DNA of 64,000 nt. Source: Planctomycetales bacterium. GTDB lineage: Bacteria; Planctomycetota; Planctomycetia; Planctomycetales; Planctomycetaceae. The stretch's first letter is position 1. Every line of letters starts with the position of its first letter. The position numbers and the translations under genes were made by a program. The stretch spans positions 62,001 to 126,000 of the forward strand of contig JAPLOA010000056.1 of assembly GCA_026400835.1 (NCBI GenBank), given 5' to 3'. Below the pieces are notes generated by a model. The model did no database searches and was not told where the DNA came from. It saw nothing but the letters and a program-made list of their open reading frames with translations. Shown here piece after piece: positions 55,835-62,225 of this stretch.

Positions 55835-56623
55835 TCAGCGTTTTGCTGTTCGGATGAAGATTGTTGTCAGGGGACGAGGACTTGTGGATCGCGTCCAGAT
55901 TCTACCGCTGGAGCTTAACAGAATCGGCTTACTGGAGTTGGCCTTGAGTGATTTCTGCAGTGACCGCTCAAGGTCGAAGGCTTTATCGGTCGCATGAGCC
56001 AGTGCGTCAGAAGCCGGCGTCGATGCCCAGACAACAATTTCAAGTTCTGCTGGTTGCTCTTGACTGAAGAGCCCGGCCTCCAGGCATGTTTTCAGAATTC
56101 GTTGGATGCCATTTCGAACGGCATTGTCTGATTGCTGCGATTGTGAATGAAGATCCAACGCGAGCTGACCATCGAACTCAACCGATCGCGAAATGTTGCA
56201 GAACCTTTCCAGTTCGGTCATCAGATGTGAAAACACCGGACCGTTCAAATCTACGGGGGAAACTTTGTCCGTAGTGAATCGCCCTGACTCTTCCTCTTCC
56301 GGTACCGTCAGGGTTGCTCCCCGAAGCAGCTTCTGGCGCGACACAATGCTGTTGATTCCGGACTGATCTGCAAGGTTCTCATTCGCGGCATCAGCTTCCT
56401 GACGAAAGCTGGCTGCGATCACTGCGAAGTCTTCCCGACCGAGATCGCGCAGCGATCCGCTAAAGGCGGTTGTCACTTCAGAAAGTTCTGCCCCGGACTG
56501 GTCACGGGAGACACTGATCAGTACGGCAAGAGTTGTGAAGACGCACAGCAACAGACCTGCAAGATTTATTGTTGATGCATGAAACGGCGATCGATGCGAC
56601 GCGGGAGTCAGTTGACGAATCAT
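55835..56623 (-). CDS. MotB-shaped single-pass membrane protein 2 (no channel Asp)
   Basis: A 262-aa protein with one N-terminal transmembrane helix (about 18-42, INLAGLLLCVFTTLAVLISVS) followed by a predicted periplasmic helical segment (SEVTTAFSGSLRDLG) and an alpha/beta C-terminal domain. Position and layout match MotB (helix, plug-like helix, OmpA-like domain), but the Asp that MotB carries early in its helix aligns with Gly, and the peptidoglycan-binding signature is not recognisable. Its ATG overlaps the stop of the preceding gene as ATGA, so the two are translationally coupled. It ends the flagellar operon. The stator role is inferred from context, not shown. Confidence 0.7.
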   Translation of the reverse strand: MIRQLTPASHRSPFHASTINLAGLLLCVFTTLAVLISVSRDQSGAELSEVTTAFSGSLRDLGREDFAVIAASFRQEADAANENLADQSGINSIVSRQKLLRGATLTVPEEEESGRFTTDKVSPVDLNGPVFSHLMTELERFCNISRSVEFDGQLALDLHSQSQQSDNAVRNGIQRILKTCLEAGLFSQEQPAELEIVVWASTPASDALAHATDKAFDLERSLQKSLKANSSKPILLSSSGRIWTRSTSPRPLTTIFIRTAKR

Positions 56624-57249
56624 GGTTGCGACTCCAGTCTGGCAATCATCTTCTTCGTTCGCAGGATGTGAATCTGAAGCTTATCCAGCGGCATACTGTC
56701 GACCAGGCTGATGGCCATCTCACTGATGTCCACGATCTGTTCCGGCTCTGCACTTTTGCGGATCGTGTCGAACCACTGCATCGCTATTCTCTTATTTCCG
56801 GGATTGACGCGTAGAGTCATCTGGAACTGCAGAGCCGATGCACGGCGTGACAGCACTTCGAGCAGTTCAACAGGAATCTGCGGTTTGGAGTGATCAGAAG
56901 TGTTCGTTGGCTCAATGTCGATTTCGATAGTCACTCGCTCCAGCGGTGCCACCTCTTCTGGATTATTCAGACGTCGCAGCCCCGCTTCCGTAGTCGCGAG
57001 AACGCTCACGCGGCTGGACGCGTTCTTCCGGGGACTGACATCCAGAAGAATGTCCTGCCTCAGATCTTCAGGCACCAGAATCTTAGCAGCCAGCGTCCGT
57101 TCGATTGCTCGCTGCTCAGAATGTGCCGCCGACTTCGACGCGAATGAAACCGCCAGAAACATAATCCCAATCAGCAACCCCGGCAACATAGCGCGGAAAG
57201 CATTGGTATAATTCGCGGAATGAAAAGATTTTCCGGTCTGGATGGCCAT
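56620..57249 (-). CDS. MotB-shaped single-pass membrane protein 1 (no channel Asp)
   Basis: A 209-aa protein with one transmembrane helix (about 20-40, AMLPGLLIGIMFLAVSF) and a periplasmic alpha/beta domain with strands VTIEIDIEP, FQMTLRVNP and LQIHIL separated by helices, a pattern compatible with a divergent OmpA/MotB fold. The helix start reads YTNAFRAML where MotB proteins have YADxxT-like sequence with the essential Asp; no Asp is present. GGGAG 10 nt upstream supports ATG 57249; the frame open to 57390 is not used. It lies 40 nt after motA and is coupled (ATGA) to the next gene. Role unknown. Confidence 0.7.
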   Translation of the reverse strand: MAIQTGKSFHSANYTNAFRAMLPGLLIGIMFLAVSFASKSAAHSEQRAIERTLAAKILVPEDLRQDILLDVSPRKNASSRVSVLATTEAGLRRLNNPEEVAPLERVTIEIDIEPTNTSDHSKPQIPVELLEVLSRRASALQFQMTLRVNPGNKRIAMQWFDTIRKSAEPEQIVDISEMAISLVDSMPLDKLQIHILRTKKMIARLESQP

Positions 57250-57289
57250 GCCGTGAAGACTCCCTGAAACCAACAATAGCGATGGCGCG

Positions 57290-58072
57290 TTAAGCTGCGC
57301 GATTTTTGTCGTCTGGTTTTGTGGTGCGTTCGCGAGGCGGAACCCACGCACGCAGCCTTTCCTCAACGATGTTCGGCGAATTCTCCTCAATCAACGCCAC
57401 GAATCCGTCCGTCATCACCTGGCGGATCAGCACCTCTTCGGCATGTCGTGCTTCCAGTTTTCCGGCAAGAGGTACACACAGCAGATTGGAGAACAAGGCA
57501 CCGTAGAGCGTGGTCAGTAGGGCTAGTGCTAATCCCGAGCCCAGCGTTCGTGGGTCGTCGAAACTTCGCAGCATCTGCACGAGCCCGATCAGAGTTCCGG
57601 TCATTCCCCACGCTGGTGCGGCAGAAGCCATCACTTCGAACAGTCGACGTCCCTGCAGGTGGCGATGTTCAATGGCGATGAGTTCACGCTGCAAAGCTTC
57701 ACGGACAAATGTGGCATCGCTCTCATTAGACGACATCTCCAGCCCGAATTTCATAAACGAATCGGATTCTTTTGCGGCTTCCTTCTCCAGAACTCCGGTC
57801 CCCTCTCGCCTCACGTGAGTTGCAATCGCGCGAAAACGACTGACGACTTCCGAAGCTTCCGGGAGACTTGTCACAAAGCAGGTCCGTGCCACAGCGAAGG
57901 CGGTTAGCACTCGCCTGGCCGGAAAATGAATCAGCACGGCTGAGAGTGTTCCTCCGATCGTGATGAATAACGAAGGCAGATGCAGCCATGCGGGATTATC
58001 ACCGGCCGAGAGCATCGCGGCGACAATCATTGCCAGTCCGGTGATAAGTCCGAAAAATGTGGCTATGTCCAT
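57290..58072 (-). CDS. motA: Flagellar motor stator protein MotA
   Basis: A 260-aa MotA/PomA with four hydrophobic segments (about 3-24, 34-52, 146-165, 180-200). Diagnostic residues: AAPAWGMTGTLIGLVQML (channel-lining Pro and Gly/Thr) and GSGLALALLTTLYGALFSNLLCVPLAGKLE. The cytoplasmic loop between segments 2 and 3 carries charged residues (EASEVVSRFRAIATHVRREG) as needed to act on FliG. It drives rotation with a MotB partner by ion flow. ATG 58072 is preferred to a GTG at 58084. No canonical motB follows; two small MotB-shaped genes do. REP-like repeats separate it from flhB. Confidence 0.95.
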   Translation of the reverse strand: MDIATFFGLITGLAMIVAAMLSAGDNPAWLHLPSLFITIGGTLSAVLIHFPARRVLTAFAVARTCFVTSLPEASEVVSRFRAIATHVRREGTGVLEKEAAKESDSFMKFGLEMSSNESDATFVREALQRELIAIEHRHLQGRRLFEVMASAAPAWGMTGTLIGLVQMLRSFDDPRTLGSGLALALLTTLYGALFSNLLCVPLAGKLEARHAEEVLIRQVMTDGFVALIEENSPNIVEERLRAWVPPRERTTKPDDKNRAA

Positions 58073-58176
58073 AGGAGTTCTCACGCTGCGAGAAGCATTC
58101 TGTTAATAGTTAAACACGAGTTCGCCTTCTGCTTTGTTGAGAACGAAACAGAGTGACGGTTCATCAATTTGTTAAT

Positions 58177-58449: not shown

Positions 58450-59511
58450 CTACGCGGCCTGTTTCGTTTTGTAGATCTGAGCAAGGATCTCCGCGATAGC
58501 ACGGAAGAAGTCGAAAGGAATCTCCTGACCAACATCGACCGATTTGAACAATGCACGAGCCAGAGGTTTTCGCTCCAGCACAGGAATGTTGTTCTCTTTC
58601 GCAATCCGGACAATATTCTTCGCGAAGACTCCCGCCCCTTTGGCAACGATGCGAGGAGCTTTCATCTGACCTGGCTCGTACTGAATCGCAATCGCAAGGT
58701 GCGTCGGATTGGTCAGAATCACAGTAGCTTTCGGAACATCTCGCACTGACTGACGCCGGCGAGCTTCTCTCTGCTTCTTCCGGATCGCGGCCTTGAGATG
58801 CGGGTCGCCGGAGTCATCTTTCTGTTCCTGTTTAATTTCTTCACGAGACATCATCAGCTTTTGCTCGTTGCGAAACCATTTGACCAGGTAGTCGATCAAC
58901 GCCAGCCCCAGAGAAACTCCCGCCATGGCAATGCAGACGTAAAGGCCCAGCCTCCATGCGGATTCAGTCAGCGACGCAACTGAGGCGTGATTCTGAACGG
59001 AAAACTCCGTCCGTTTGATCCAGAGGCAGATCGCCGAAACGCCCAGCAGCAGCGAGACTTTCGCAACGTTCATCAGGCCGGCAATGCCGGATTCCATAGA
59101 GACGATTTTCGAGAAGCCATTCTCGGGCAGCAGCCGCTCCCACTTGATCTCCAGGGCCTGAAACGAGACATGAAATCCAACCTGGGCGAATCCAAACGCC
59201 AGGCCAATCACCATGACCCCGGGAACAAGGAAGCCGCAGATCGCCACCAGTTCACTCGTCATCCAATGAGCACTCTCAGAGACGTGATGCACGCCCCAGG
59301 CTTCGGACGGAACTTCAGCAAACCAGCGACGAAATCCTTCCATCAGTCGCACCGCGATCGTGGAACCTGACCACAGCAGCACGAGGCAACCCGCCAGCAA
59401 CGCGATGGATGCCGTCAGGTCAGGACTGAAAACAACCTGCCCCTCTTCGCGTGCATCTTCGCGACGCTTTGGTGTTGGGGCTTCTGTCCCTGTATTCTCC
59501 GGACCTGCCAT
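58450..59511 (-). CDS. flhB: Flagellar export switch protein FlhB
   Basis: A 353-aa inner-membrane component of the flagellar type III export gate. Four transmembrane segments lie at about 33-53, 88-112, 148-165 and 188-210; a cytoplasmic linker follows and the autocleavage site NPTH is at residues 268-271, with the C-terminal domain (YEPGQMKAPRIVAKGAGVFA, LARALFKSVDVGQEIP) controlling the rod/hook to filament substrate switch. The start is immediately next to the fliR stop (TAAATG), so the two are cotranscribed. N-terminal residues 1-30 are Glu/Lys-rich, as usual for FlhB. Confidence 0.97.
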   Translation of the reverse strand: MAGPENTGTEAPTPKRREDAREEGQVVFSPDLTASIALLAGCLVLLWSGSTIAVRLMEGFRRWFAEVPSEAWGVHHVSESAHWMTSELVAICGFLVPGVMVIGLAFGFAQVGFHVSFQALEIKWERLLPENGFSKIVSMESGIAGLMNVAKVSLLLGVSAICLWIKRTEFSVQNHASVASLTESAWRLGLYVCIAMAGVSLGLALIDYLVKWFRNEQKLMMSREEIKQEQKDDSGDPHLKAAIRKKQREARRRQSVRDVPKATVILTNPTHLAIAIQYEPGQMKAPRIVAKGAGVFAKNIVRIAKENNIPVLERKPLARALFKSVDVGQEIPFDFFRAIAEILAQIYKTKQAA

Positions 59512-60285
59512 TTATGTGGCCTCCTGTCCGACAAAAAGGAGCAACCCCTGAACGGCACCACAGATGTCCGGGAAGAACAAAATCAAACCGCCGATGCCGG
59601 CCACCAGACGCATCGTCATGCCATACGACATGAAATTGAATTGAGGAGCTGTTCGCATGGTGATTAGTACCGTCAGTGAAACAACAAACAGCAGCACGCC
59701 CACCGGACCAATGATTACAAAGCCCTGATCAACGGATTGTGTCACGCTCCACAGAACGGTCTCCCACGAAGGCATCTCCCAGCCGGATGCCGCAGGACGA
59801 ACGACAAACGAGCGACCAATCATCCAGAACATGATGTGATGCAGATCCATCACGAAGAACATCAGCACCGCAATAGCTTCCAGAACCTGGGAAACAACGT
59901 TGCTGCTTTGCTGATCCATCGGCGACGCAAGGCCCGCCATCGTAAGTCCCATTTCCTGAGCAACCCACGCCCCTGCAACTCGCACGGGAACAAAACACAG
60001 ACTGAATATCCAGGCCAGACCTGCACCAAGAGCGGTTTCGCGGATCGTGAGCCAGGCCAGATGCAGCCAGGCACCGGCACTGGAGAAATCCCCGGCCGAC
60101 GATATCGCAATCTGCACGGCGTGTTGCGGGGCGATAACCGCAACCAGTGAAATTGCCAGCCCGATCTTGACTGTGGCCGGCATTCCCTGGCCATTCAGTG
60201 GTGGCAGGAACGCAATGAATGCTCCAACCCGGAAGAGAATGAGCAGCCAGGCGATGATCTGCGATTCGATGATGGTGATTGCCAT
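59512..60285 (-). CDS. fliR: Flagellar export protein FliR
   Basis: A 257-aa polytopic membrane protein of the export gate. It starts MAITIIESQIIAWLLILFRVGAFIAFLPPLNG in pieces and has six hydrophobic segments and the family features RVAGAWVAQEMGLTMAGL and FVVSLTVLITMRTAPQFNFMSYGM. ATG 60285 overlaps the fliQ stop by one base (TAATG), confirming this start over the longer frame to 60501, whose first 72 residues are fliQ read out of frame. flhB begins directly at its stop. Confidence 0.96.
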   Translation of the reverse strand: MAITIIESQIIAWLLILFRVGAFIAFLPPLNGQGMPATVKIGLAISLVAVIAPQHAVQIAISSAGDFSSAGAWLHLAWLTIRETALGAGLAWIFSLCFVPVRVAGAWVAQEMGLTMAGLASPMDQQSSNVVSQVLEAIAVLMFFVMDLHHIMFWMIGRSFVVRPAASGWEMPSWETVLWSVTQSVDQGFVIIGPVGVLLFVVSLTVLITMRTAPQFNFMSYGMTMRLVAGIGGLILFFPDICGAVQGLLLFVGQEAT

Positions 60286-60554
60286 TATTGAGTCACCAGA
60301 ATCATGCGTTCCATCATGCGTAACGTAAATGCTGAGGCCTGCTCCAGTGTCCACGGCAGAGTCAACAGCATCACGGCACCCACCGCGACGATGCGAGGAG
60401 CAAACGACAGAGTCTGTTCCTGTATGCTGGTGACTGTCTGCATCAGACTGACACCAAGACCGACGACAAGACTGACCGCGACAGCAGGCCCCGAAAGCCA
60501 CATAGATGTAATCAACAGGTCTTGCCCGATAGCGACGACGTCCAATGTTTCCAT
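60285..60554 (-). CDS. fliQ: Flagellar export protein FliQ
   Basis: An 89-aa protein with two hydrophobic helices (about 17-38 and 52-72) and the diagnostic loop VGLGVSLMQTVTSIQEQTLSFAPRI, nearly invariant in FliQ/SctS. It is a subunit of the export gate with FliP and FliR. It overlaps fliR by one base and follows the motE stop after 19 nt; fliO and fliP, which usually precede fliQ, are absent here and must lie elsewhere. Confidence 0.97.
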   Translation of the reverse strand: METLDVVAIGQDLLITSMWLSGPAVAVSLVVGLGVSLMQTVTSIQEQTLSFAPRIVAVGAVMLLTLPWTLEQASAFTLRMMERMILVTQ

Positions 60555-60573: not shown

Positions 60574-61761
60574 TTATGGCTTTTTCGCAGACTTTGTTTC
60601 GGTATTTCGAGTACTCATTCGCAGCAGAAATTTACTGGCCAGAGCTTCATCCTGCAGTGCATCCATGATGGCTCCGGATTTTCTTTGATCCATCATTCTC
60701 AGGATGTCCACGACCAGGTCCGTATTCCCCTGAGTGTCCATTTCGCGGAGATTCTTCGCCGCAGATTCCGGCGGCATTCCCTCCATGAACTTGGCAACTT
60801 CTTTTGGATTCTGAACCAGCGGAGCTGCATTAGGGTCCGCAGCTTCAGGAAGGCTGCGACCTGTTGTGCTGAGAAACGCACGCTTTTCCTGCTCGAGGAG
60901 AACTCGATCGGAGTCCAACTTATTGCGATCCTGTACCACCTGACGCTTGTCGCTGTCGACGCTTTCCTTATCCTTCAGCCAACTATCACGGTCCCGCGCC
61001 AATTTTTCACTGTCCTGATTGACTCGAGTCTGTGTGTCAGCAAAAGCTTTTCGATCGTCTTCCAATGCTTTTCGCTTGATCGCCAGTTCATTTTCTGTCT
61101 GTGTCAGCTTCAGCTTCTCAGCTTCCAGCGACTGTTTGGCGAGTTCCAGCTCGGACTGTTCTTTCTTCAGCTTGTCTGAGTCACCACTGAATGATGCTCG
61201 TTCGCGAAGCAACGATTCCGACTGAGCAGCAATACGAGCCAGCAATTCTTCCTTCGCAGCCCGCTGGTCACTCGTCTGAGCCAGCAGGTTTTCGACATCC
61301 TGCTGGGCAGACGCGAGGTCGGCCAGAACAAGACGCTGCTGAGATTCAATTTCTCGAAGTGATTCTTCGCGTTTGCGAATCGACTCATCCCGCGATTTGA
61401 GGCTCAGGCCCATCCGCACGATTTCTTCAACCGTCATTGGTGTCGAACGAACCGCCACCGGCAACTGATCATCGTGCTCGGTTGAACCATGATCTTTGAC
61501 ATGCCCGCCAGAGTGGCTGTCGGATCCGTGAACTTTGGCCGAATGATGTTCGGCTGTGTTTCCGTGCGAGTCCGCCTCACTGTCGCCATGACCATCGACA
61601 GGGTTTTCGCCGTGTTCACCAGCTTCACCGTCTTCCTCGCCTTCCGCATTCTCAGCGGTCGTTGCAGGCGGGGCGGACTTCTTCATCATGAACATGCCAA
61701 GTCCGGCCGTAACGCCAAACATCATTCCGCCGTACAGCAGCATTCCCAGAATCTTCTTCAT
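60574..61761 (-). CDS. MotE-like flagellar protein (coiled coil + MgtE_N-like domain)
   Basis: A 395-aa protein. An N-terminal transmembrane helix (about 5-24) is followed by a His/Asp/Glu/Gly-rich low-complexity stretch (about 30-100), a long charged coiled coil (about 108-290) and a C-terminal MgtE_N-like domain (FMEGMPPESAAKNLREMDTQGNTD in parts, about 322-385). This is the arrangement of MotE/FliJ-linked flagellar proteins, which in other bacteria help assemble or stabilise motor parts. The coiled coil is much longer than in classic MotE. Its start overlaps the fliJ stop as ATGA, so the two are coupled. Confidence 0.85.
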   Translation of the reverse strand: MKKILGMLLYGGMMFGVTAGLGMFMMKKSAPPATTAENAEGEEDGEAGEHGENPVDGHGDSEADSHGNTAEHHSAKVHGSDSHSGGHVKDHGSTEHDDQLPVAVRSTPMTVEEIVRMGLSLKSRDESIRKREESLREIESQQRLVLADLASAQQDVENLLAQTSDQRAAKEELLARIAAQSESLLRERASFSGDSDKLKKEQSELELAKQSLEAEKLKLTQTENELAIKRKALEDDRKAFADTQTRVNQDSEKLARDRDSWLKDKESVDSDKRQVVQDRNKLDSDRVLLEQEKRAFLSTTGRSLPEAADPNAAPLVQNPKEVAKFMEGMPPESAAKNLREMDTQGNTDLVVDILRMMDQRKSGAIMDALQDEALASKFLLRMSTRNTETKSAKKP

Positions 61762-62225
61762 GACTCGCTATCCTGATTGAGTTCCATCTTGCGGTAGTAG
61801 GTCTGTACGGCTTGTTCCAGGAGTTGATTCTCTTCAATTCGCAGCTGTGCTTTGCGATGCTCTGTCAGCTCTCGGTGGATCATCTCTTCCACAATTCTTA
61901 GCTCCGCTCTGGCTTCCTTGTGTTCCTGCAGAGCAATTTCCAGTCGGTCGTCGGCCAGTCTGAGTGCTTCGTTGTCCAGTTTGATCTGATGTTTCGCTCG
62001 TTCTATCTGTGTCGCCATCGACTGCAGAATCGATCCTGTGACGCCCAACTTTATCCCTGCGGCTGTTTCTGTCTCAAAACGAGACAGTCTAAGTTCCGCC
62101 TCATTCCGTCTTCGTTCGGCCTCAATCCTCTCCGCATTCCTCGCCGCCGCCGCTGCTCGACAAACATCTTCCTGTTGAGCCCTCAAGCGGCGAATTTTTT
62201 CGTATCGGGAAACAAAACGTTTCAT
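61758..62225 (-). CDS. fliJ: Flagellar export chaperone/ATPase cofactor FliJ
   Basis: A 155-aa, almost entirely helical, charged coiled-coil protein with the FliJ start pattern MKRFVSRYEKIRRLRAQQED and no hydrophobic segment. FliJ stimulates the FliI ATPase and links it to FlhA. It is ATGA-coupled to the downstream motE-like gene. Upstream, the heptamer repeat lies directly against the start codon and no Shine-Dalgarno sequence is visible there. Gene order fliI-fliJ is standard. Confidence 0.9.
   Translation of the reverse strand: MKRFVSRYEKIRRLRAQQEDVCRAAAAARNAERIEAERRRNEAELRLSRFETETAAGIKLGVTGSILQSMATQIERAKHQIKLDNEALRLADDRLEIALQEHKEARAELRIVEEMIHRELTEHRKAQLRIEENQLLEQAVQTYYRKMELNQDSES

Follow-up and report, generated by a model that had tools for sequence, protein, structure and literature searches.

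The motA-motB1-motB2 locus

The window (the whole analysed stretch of DNA, 64,000 nucleotides in length) carries on its minus strand a motA gene followed by two genes of the motB1 and motB2 type, referred to below as B1 and B2. The motA gene (57290..58072) encodes a PomA/MotP-like protein, designated MotA2, of 260 aa when read from its ATG; a GTG at 58084 is a possible alternative start. B1 (56620..57249; 209 aa, with an in-frame TTG upstream) and B2 (55835..56623; 262 aa) each encode a protein with one hydrophobic transmembrane (TM) helix, whose 20-residue core contains neither Asp nor Glu. The stop codon of B1 and the start codon of B2 overlap by 4 bases (ATGA, 56620..56623, minus strand), an arrangement that may couple the translation of the two genes. 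An overlap of the same type occurs in the related genomes G004, G011, G014 and G015; in G005 the genes are separated by a 2-base gap. All three open reading frames were located where the earlier note on this DNA had placed them, with the gene order, coordinates and overlap that it had reported.

The trio belongs to a cluster of flagellar genes, all on the minus strand. Directly upstream of motA lies flhB (58450..59511), recognized by its Pfam match (PF01312, 9.2e-101) and by synteny, preceded by fliR (59512..60282; PF01311, 1.4e-39), fliQ (60285..60554; PF01313, 8.8e-25), a fliJ-like gene (61758..62225; FliJ match of 3.1e-05, below the curated cut-off) and, upstream of the latter, fliI (from 62321). 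Past the end of the window, the same contig contains fliG, fliF, fliE, a flgC-like gene and a flgB-like gene (match below the cut-off). In the whole genome (G000; 7.58 Mb in 112 contigs), FliG was matched once and Flagellin_N twice, once strongly and once more weakly.

Two further features of the cluster were recorded. Between fliJ/fliI and fliQ, in the window (60574-61761, minus strand) and in most of the related flagellar clusters compared, there is a gene for a protein (395 aa in the window) that has a His/Glu-rich N-terminus and no Pfam match. The FliG proteins of the genus, including the copy just past the window end (L128:7529-8722), contain an insert of variable length after the N-terminal part, which is rich in Ala, Gln and Glu in the window's copy; the insert is shorter in G069, and FliG of G021, G028 and G032 has none. 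The C-terminal domain of FliG is kept.

The MotA protein of the trio

The earlier note had called motA clear, and profile searches bear this out: the protein matched Pfam MotA_ExbB (6.4e-24), and its best NCBIfam model was PomA (1.2e-63, residues 1-255, below the curated equivalog cut-off). Judged from these matches, MotA2 is a stator A subunit of the flagellar type. The TM3 and TM4 motifs are kept in the MotA2 of the Asp-less trios, and all seven Asp-less MotA2 rows show an Arg-Arg...Glu pattern, whose residues are taken to lie at the torque interface facing FliG. The role of R90 and E98 of Escherichia coli MotA in this interface is treated in passages of PMC4525482.

In the MotA2 tree, the seven Asp-less proteins form one side of a branch with 100/100 support, with the outgroups on the opposite side; the stem branch is long (1.17). 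The long branch of G005 is partly due to an unedited upstream open frame in its row. The closest named record found is a metagenome assembly of a "Planctomycetaceae bacterium", with a MotA 97% identical to that of the window. A contig with a motA 94% identical (L015) was deposited as Candidatus Kuenenia stuttgartiensis, a record name that looks wrong.

Distribution of the trio and of the channel aspartate

A B2-type gene was detected in 34 of 397 genomes, and several families of this planctomycete class have motA-motB1-motB2 trios. An alignment of the copies collected in the family and class surveys comprised 40 B1 sequences (38 readable at the column of the channel aspartate) and 41 B2 sequences (40 readable). 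This column contains Asp in 31/38 of the B1 and 33/40 of the B2 proteins, with seven exceptions in each set. The seven B1 exceptions all come from the genus of the window (G000, G004, G005, G011, G014, G015 and the flagellar copy of G012). Those in B2 comprise six copies from the same genus and one from another family (G041); the seventh B2 of the genus, that of G012, which is cut by a contig end, also lacks the aspartate. Moreover, no Asp or Glu was found anywhere in the 20-residue helix core of the seven B1 and six B2 proteins of the genus. Both aspartates are therefore missing, among the copies read, only in the window's genus, and there in 7/7 members with FliG.

The absence of the channel aspartate from both B proteins, claimed in the earlier note, was thus verified from the helix cores and from the aligned column. 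The residue is Gly in B2, as had been proposed; the Arg/Ala suggested for B1 was not recovered, since the two alignments differ in giving Gly or Met at this column, and neither has an acid there. The trio is also not peculiar to one genome, as motA and B1 are present in 7/7 genus members with a strong FliG match, which argues against chance.

In the trio of G041 (L062:6264-7666), B1 bears Asp but B2 bears Ser, possibly a half-way state. This genome has no strong MotA1 (the A subunit of the second stator described below), which indicates that MotA1 is no precondition for losing one aspartate.

Relationship of B1 and B2 to MotB

Had B1 and B2 been annotated by direct searches alone, no link to MotB would have emerged. 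Neither protein has a credible Pfam or NCBIfam match, none of the seven B1 and six B2 Asp-less rows matched Pfam at 0.01, a direct profile comparison of the window B1 and B2 families with ordinary MotB found nothing, and comparison of the B1 profile with PDB sequences gave nothing useful.

The link is provided by related genomes, in which both genes behind motA encode clear MotB plugs (B1 ...TYSDVITLLMTFFILLLTF, B2 ...SFGDTMTALLAFFIVLNSLA). In profile comparisons, the window B1 family matched the Asp-bearing B1 family (98.2%, E 2.7e-14; C-terminal part only) and the window B2 family matched the Asp-bearing B2 family (98.8%, E 6.1e-17; nearly the whole protein), as against 0.4% and 0.8% for the crossed pairings. 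The Asp-bearing families in turn matched ordinary planctomycete MotB, at 97.5% for B1 and at 91.8% for B2, where the match spans 37 columns around the helix, and the Asp-bearing B1 profile also matched solved MotB/PomB chains in their N-terminal part. Pfam MotB_plug was detected in 7/14 B1 rows and 7/13 B2 rows of the trio alignments, the Ser-bearing B2 of G041 among them; as none of the Asp-less rows (0/7 B1, 0/6 B2) gave such a match, the matching rows come from other loci. Pfam OmpA matched no row of the B1 or B2 alignments, the Asp-less rows included. As far as these profile relationships go, B1 and B2 are MotB-derived by way of their Asp-bearing counterparts, and the window pair descends from Asp-bearing pairs. 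The description of the two proteins as MotB-shaped therefore failed when tested directly against MotB and held through the intermediate trios. Identity of the pair with ExbD/TolR was considered and rejected, in view of the flagellar type of the MotA partner and of the MotB plug in the Asp-bearing counterparts.

Structural models of B1 and B2 were poor (mean pLDDT 56 and 58, respectively). The C-terminal halves of both have, at low confidence, the order beta-alpha-beta-alpha-beta-beta of OmpA-like domains. Foldseek searches with the B1 model gave OmpA-like domains as leading matches, with Salmonella MotB at rank 18 and a best E of 2e-3; those with the B2 model were led by TssL, SiiA, a Dot/Icm protein and OmpA-like domains, with Helicobacter pylori MotB from rank 20. 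The same lists hold unrelated folds, i.e. FtsZ (up to rank 3 for B1), RusA and chorismate mutase. An OmpA-like periplasmic fold is thus predicted for both proteins with low confidence. The single TM helix that had been ascribed to each stands; the periplasmic alpha/beta domain ascribed to them is seen in these low-confidence models only.

Conservation and selection

B1 and B2 are complete, open and adjacent in all five genomes of the genus in which the contig allows this to be seen (G000, G004, G011, G014, G015); in G005 and G012, B2 is open and runs off the contig end. The sequences have diverged considerably, the identity of window B1 and B2 being 84-90% to two near genus members and 19-26% to more distant ones. 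In all seven loci of the genus the trio lies directly behind flhB, as do the Asp-bearing trios at five of the eight loci examined (G021, G028, G032, G034, G069). The other three comprise G041, where the trio is in the cluster in a different order, G022, where the contig is too short, and an extra copy in G012 that lies outside the cluster.

B1 and B2 are neighbours at nearly every locus read, the exceptions being G074 (rearranged) and G182 (partial). At the G074 locus (L134, G074:C149, 4480-5776), B2 adjoins flgB/flgC-like genes, and neither B1 nor motA was found beside it. The extra trio of G012 (L060, G012:C169) is Asp-bearing, and the genome also has an Asp-less trio and MotA1. This contig has a GC content like that of other G012 stretches, its MotA is placed near G069 in the MotA tree, and of the flagellar genes of the window cluster only motA and B2 were matched on it. 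It may be contamination or a second copy.

Alignments of the three genes among G000, G015 and G004 contained no gaps, and dN/dS was 0.064-0.130 for motA, 0.237-0.288 for B1 and 0.224-0.324 for B2. The corresponding values for G014 versus G011 were 0.11, 0.23 and 0.35, at a dS of 1.0 to 1.5. All six Asp-less B pairs tested gave Fisher P <= 1.1e-5. In the three of seven pairs that were not saturated, Asp-bearing B genes had a dN/dS of 0.07-0.14, so that the ratio is about 1.6 to 5 times higher in the Asp-less genes, at unmatched divergence. MotA1 and the short MotB of the second stator gave 0.01 and 0.09 (one pair each), values as low as would be expected for a working drive. By these codon comparisons the trio genes are under purifying selection, the Asp-less pair being constrained, albeit less than a working pair. 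The idea of a decayed pair, also raised in the earlier note, is weakened by these results: no stops or frameshifts were found, the frames are open at 5/5 complete loci, and the dN/dS of the B genes (0.22-0.35) is well below 1.

The second stator

The earlier note had envisaged a MotB encoded elsewhere, and such a gene is present. A second stator locus at G000:C29:16283-17789 (L131:8284-9790) encodes an E. coli-type MotA, designated MotA1 (TIGR03818, E 1.4e-84, slightly below the curated cut-off), and a short MotB of 196 aa. The latter retains the aspartate (AYADF), is the only MotB_plug match in the window genome and has no Pfam match to the OmpA domain. Short MotB proteins (approximately 183-204 aa) were observed beside MotA1 in the seven genus genomes with MotA1, and also in g40, g42, g51, g66 and four f3 genomes. 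Other family members have a longer MotB; three longer forms tested matched Pfam OmpA and two short ones did not.

Strong FliG, MotA2 and MotA1 are found in the same 7 of 18 genomes of the genus; FliG matches are weak in two further genomes, and G017 (61% complete) matched flagellin but not FliG. In a set of 59 relatives, FliG (E < 1e-10) was detected in 43 genomes, MotA2, with two B genes or one, in 27 (without G038, whose match was its MotA1) and MotA1 in 13, when TIGR03818 matches weaker than E 1e-80 were left out. All 27 relatives with MotA2, whether in a trio or not, have FliG at E < 1e-10, and MotA2 and MotA1 occur together only in the seven genus genomes. Among 170 family genomes, the B2 profile identified 30 (approximately E 1e-21 or better, leaving out 11 weak partial matches of E 1e-5 to 1e-3) and TIGR03818 identified MotA1 in 25 (1e-30); trio and MotA1 coincide in seven, all of the window's genus. 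Outside the genus, none of 152 genomes shares the two, against 2.7 expected (P 0.043, relatedness ignored, with the MotA1-only genomes checked for the trio by the B2 profile only), which is only suggestive of mutual exclusion.

In the tree, the MotA1 proteins of the genus group with those of genus g42 (100/99), and the flagellar proteins of g42 (G069) are also close to those of the window. Within g42, G067 and G069 have an Asp-bearing trio; G068 and G070 have MotA1, and the B2 profile found no trio in either. The gene trees suggest, as the simplest history, that both stators were present in an ancestor and that losses then differed between lineages. MotA1 without a MotA2 match was also observed in five f3 genomes, and in four of these the MotB is 183-187 aa long.

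Proposed role of the Asp-less trio

To our knowledge, known flagellar stators drive rotation through the MotB aspartate, and a MotB without the channel acid is not expected to support ion-driven rotation. As there is no acid in either B helix, such rotation is not expected of MotA2. The need for this aspartate is set out in passages of PMC9389320. On the other hand, the position of the trio behind flhB, the purifying selection and its occurrence, within the genus, only with strong FliG make a non-conducting stator-like complex the most likely product of the locus. We therefore propose, as the best explanation of the homology, aspartate absence, co-occurrence, synteny and purifying selection shown above, that a former ion-driven stator of MotA, MotB1 and MotB2 has lost conduction and persists in the motor as a non-conducting part; we regard this as about evenly poised between right and wrong.

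The steps would be as follows. The ancestral stator would have consisted of MotA, MotB1 and MotB2, usually with Asp in both B subunits. In the genus ancestor, the flagellum would also have been served by a second stator, the E. coli-type MotA1 with the short Asp-bearing MotB, which may have become the driving one, the old stator then losing both its aspartates. The old complex would have been retained as a passive, regulatory or structural stator; most likely, its MotA ring would enclose a B1/B2 pair, reach into the periplasm and still touch FliG. It could idle or act as a brake while docked on FliG, or it could position or anchor the second stator, whose MotB has no OmpA domain. Assembly, non-conduction, docking at the motor and function of the complex are inferred throughout. 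The f3 genomes in which MotA1 and a short MotB occur without a MotA2 match weaken the anchoring idea. Furthermore, the loss of the aspartates is one event in one genus, so its coincidence with MotA1 is a single observation, and the pore motifs of MotA2 remain conserved, although a pure scaffold might do without them.

The heteromeric non-conducting stator partner suggested in the earlier note fares well as regards the missing aspartates; its heteromeric nature is plausible, since B1 and B2 are distinct paralogues that stand together in nearly all loci read. The Asp/Ser pair of G041 and the near-constant pairing of B1 with B2 likewise hint at heterodimers. A more specific version, which we put forward only tentatively, is an ion-blind pseudo-stator, in which a MotA ring with heteromeric B1/B2 would engage FliG and pass no current, acting as a brake, clutch, idler or anchor beside a conducting stator that has no OmpA-type anchor.

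The rapid evolution of B1 and B2 and their raised dN/dS also fit slow decay. The trio might thus be a gradually fading relic, under weakened constraint since the takeover by MotA1/MotB, with no function of its own at present and destined to be lost. The long stem branch of MotA2 (1.17) and the g42 genomes with MotA1 and no trio by the B2 profile (G068, G070) agree with such a course, as does the comparison with Asp-bearing copies, made at unmatched divergence. We nevertheless consider it rather unlikely, because the genes are open and adjacent in all five genomes where both are complete, B2 is open as far as the contig reaches in the remaining two, selection on the pair is purifying (P <= 1.1e-5) and motA remains constrained (dN/dS 0.06-0.13).

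It is improbable that the partners have been exchanged, so that MotA2 drives the motor with the short Asp-bearing MotB while B1 and B2 help to anchor or assemble the hybrid. The short MotB has its own adjacent and nearly invariant MotA1 (dN/dS 0.01), and the f3 genomes with MotA1, mostly with a short MotB, and no MotA2 indicate that it is independent of B1 and B2. Such an exchange would nonetheless account for the retention of the TM3/TM4 motifs and the torque-interface pattern in MotA2, and for the complementary features of a sole MotB_plug protein without OmpA and a B1/B2 pair with a predicted OmpA-like fold and no aspartate.

A new non-flagellar role, as an envelope or signalling complex merely left in the flagellar operon, would be in keeping with the divergent periplasmic domains and with the existence of non-flagellar MotAB relatives (ExbBD, TolQR and AglRQS, named in passages of PMC9389320); the co-occurrence with FliG in 7/7 genus genomes, the stable position behind flhB and the kept torque-interface pattern make it quite improbable. 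Finally, that B1 and B2 are unrelated membrane proteins merely resembling MotB, as the missing direct profile match might suggest, is hardly credible in view of their strong, specific one-to-one matches to Asp-bearing B1 and B2 in the same position and the OmpA-like folds among the Foldseek results.

Comparison with known systems

The nearest published arrangement that we found is the motA/motB1/motB2 operon of Aquifex aeolicus. According to PMC4525482, its two B proteins share 97% identity across the N-terminal and TM region; motility of E. coli was not rescued by whole Aquifex stators, and chimeras with the periplasmic region of E. coli MotB allowed slight spreading with either B. Unlike these, the planctomycete B1 and B2 families match no crossed counterpart and both are without the aspartate. 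The dual stators of Pseudomonas (MotAB/MotCD) and Bacillus (MotAB/MotPS) likewise provide two stator types per flagellum; in the accounts drawn on here both types are ion-driven, whereas the genus of the window has one set without the ion-binding residue. Myxococcus AglR with AglQ and AglS likewise combines one MotA-like and two MotB-like proteins. AglRQS is, however, a gliding motor, and in the parts of the review concerned (PMC9389320) both B proteins are described with the aspartate, unlike the window pair, and the choice between hetero- and homodimer is left open. MotK and MotE were considered as analogues and resemble other folds (passages of PMC10954123).

Both flagellar stator types TGI4 and TGI5 have been reported in Planctomycetota (PMC12505986). 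Judged from NCBIfam scores, an assignment of our own, the MotA of the window resembles TGI4, which is PomA-type, and the MotA1 at C29 resembles TGI5, which is of E. coli type. The portions of that account used here describe no second B gene, no Asp-less B and no flagellar B without an OmpA-like domain. A search of the open-licence literature found nothing on paired or Asp-less planctomycete MotB. Thus, the two-motB operon of Aquifex, AglRQS and dual stators are already known, and the Asp-less paired planctomycete B proteins were not found in print. If our explanation is correct, the window's genus possesses a natural stator set under selection with no aspartate in either B paralogue, which would point to a stator role apart from conduction. 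The Asp-bearing planctomycete trios, in turn, offer a natural system for asking whether the two B subunits of a stator can be different proteins.
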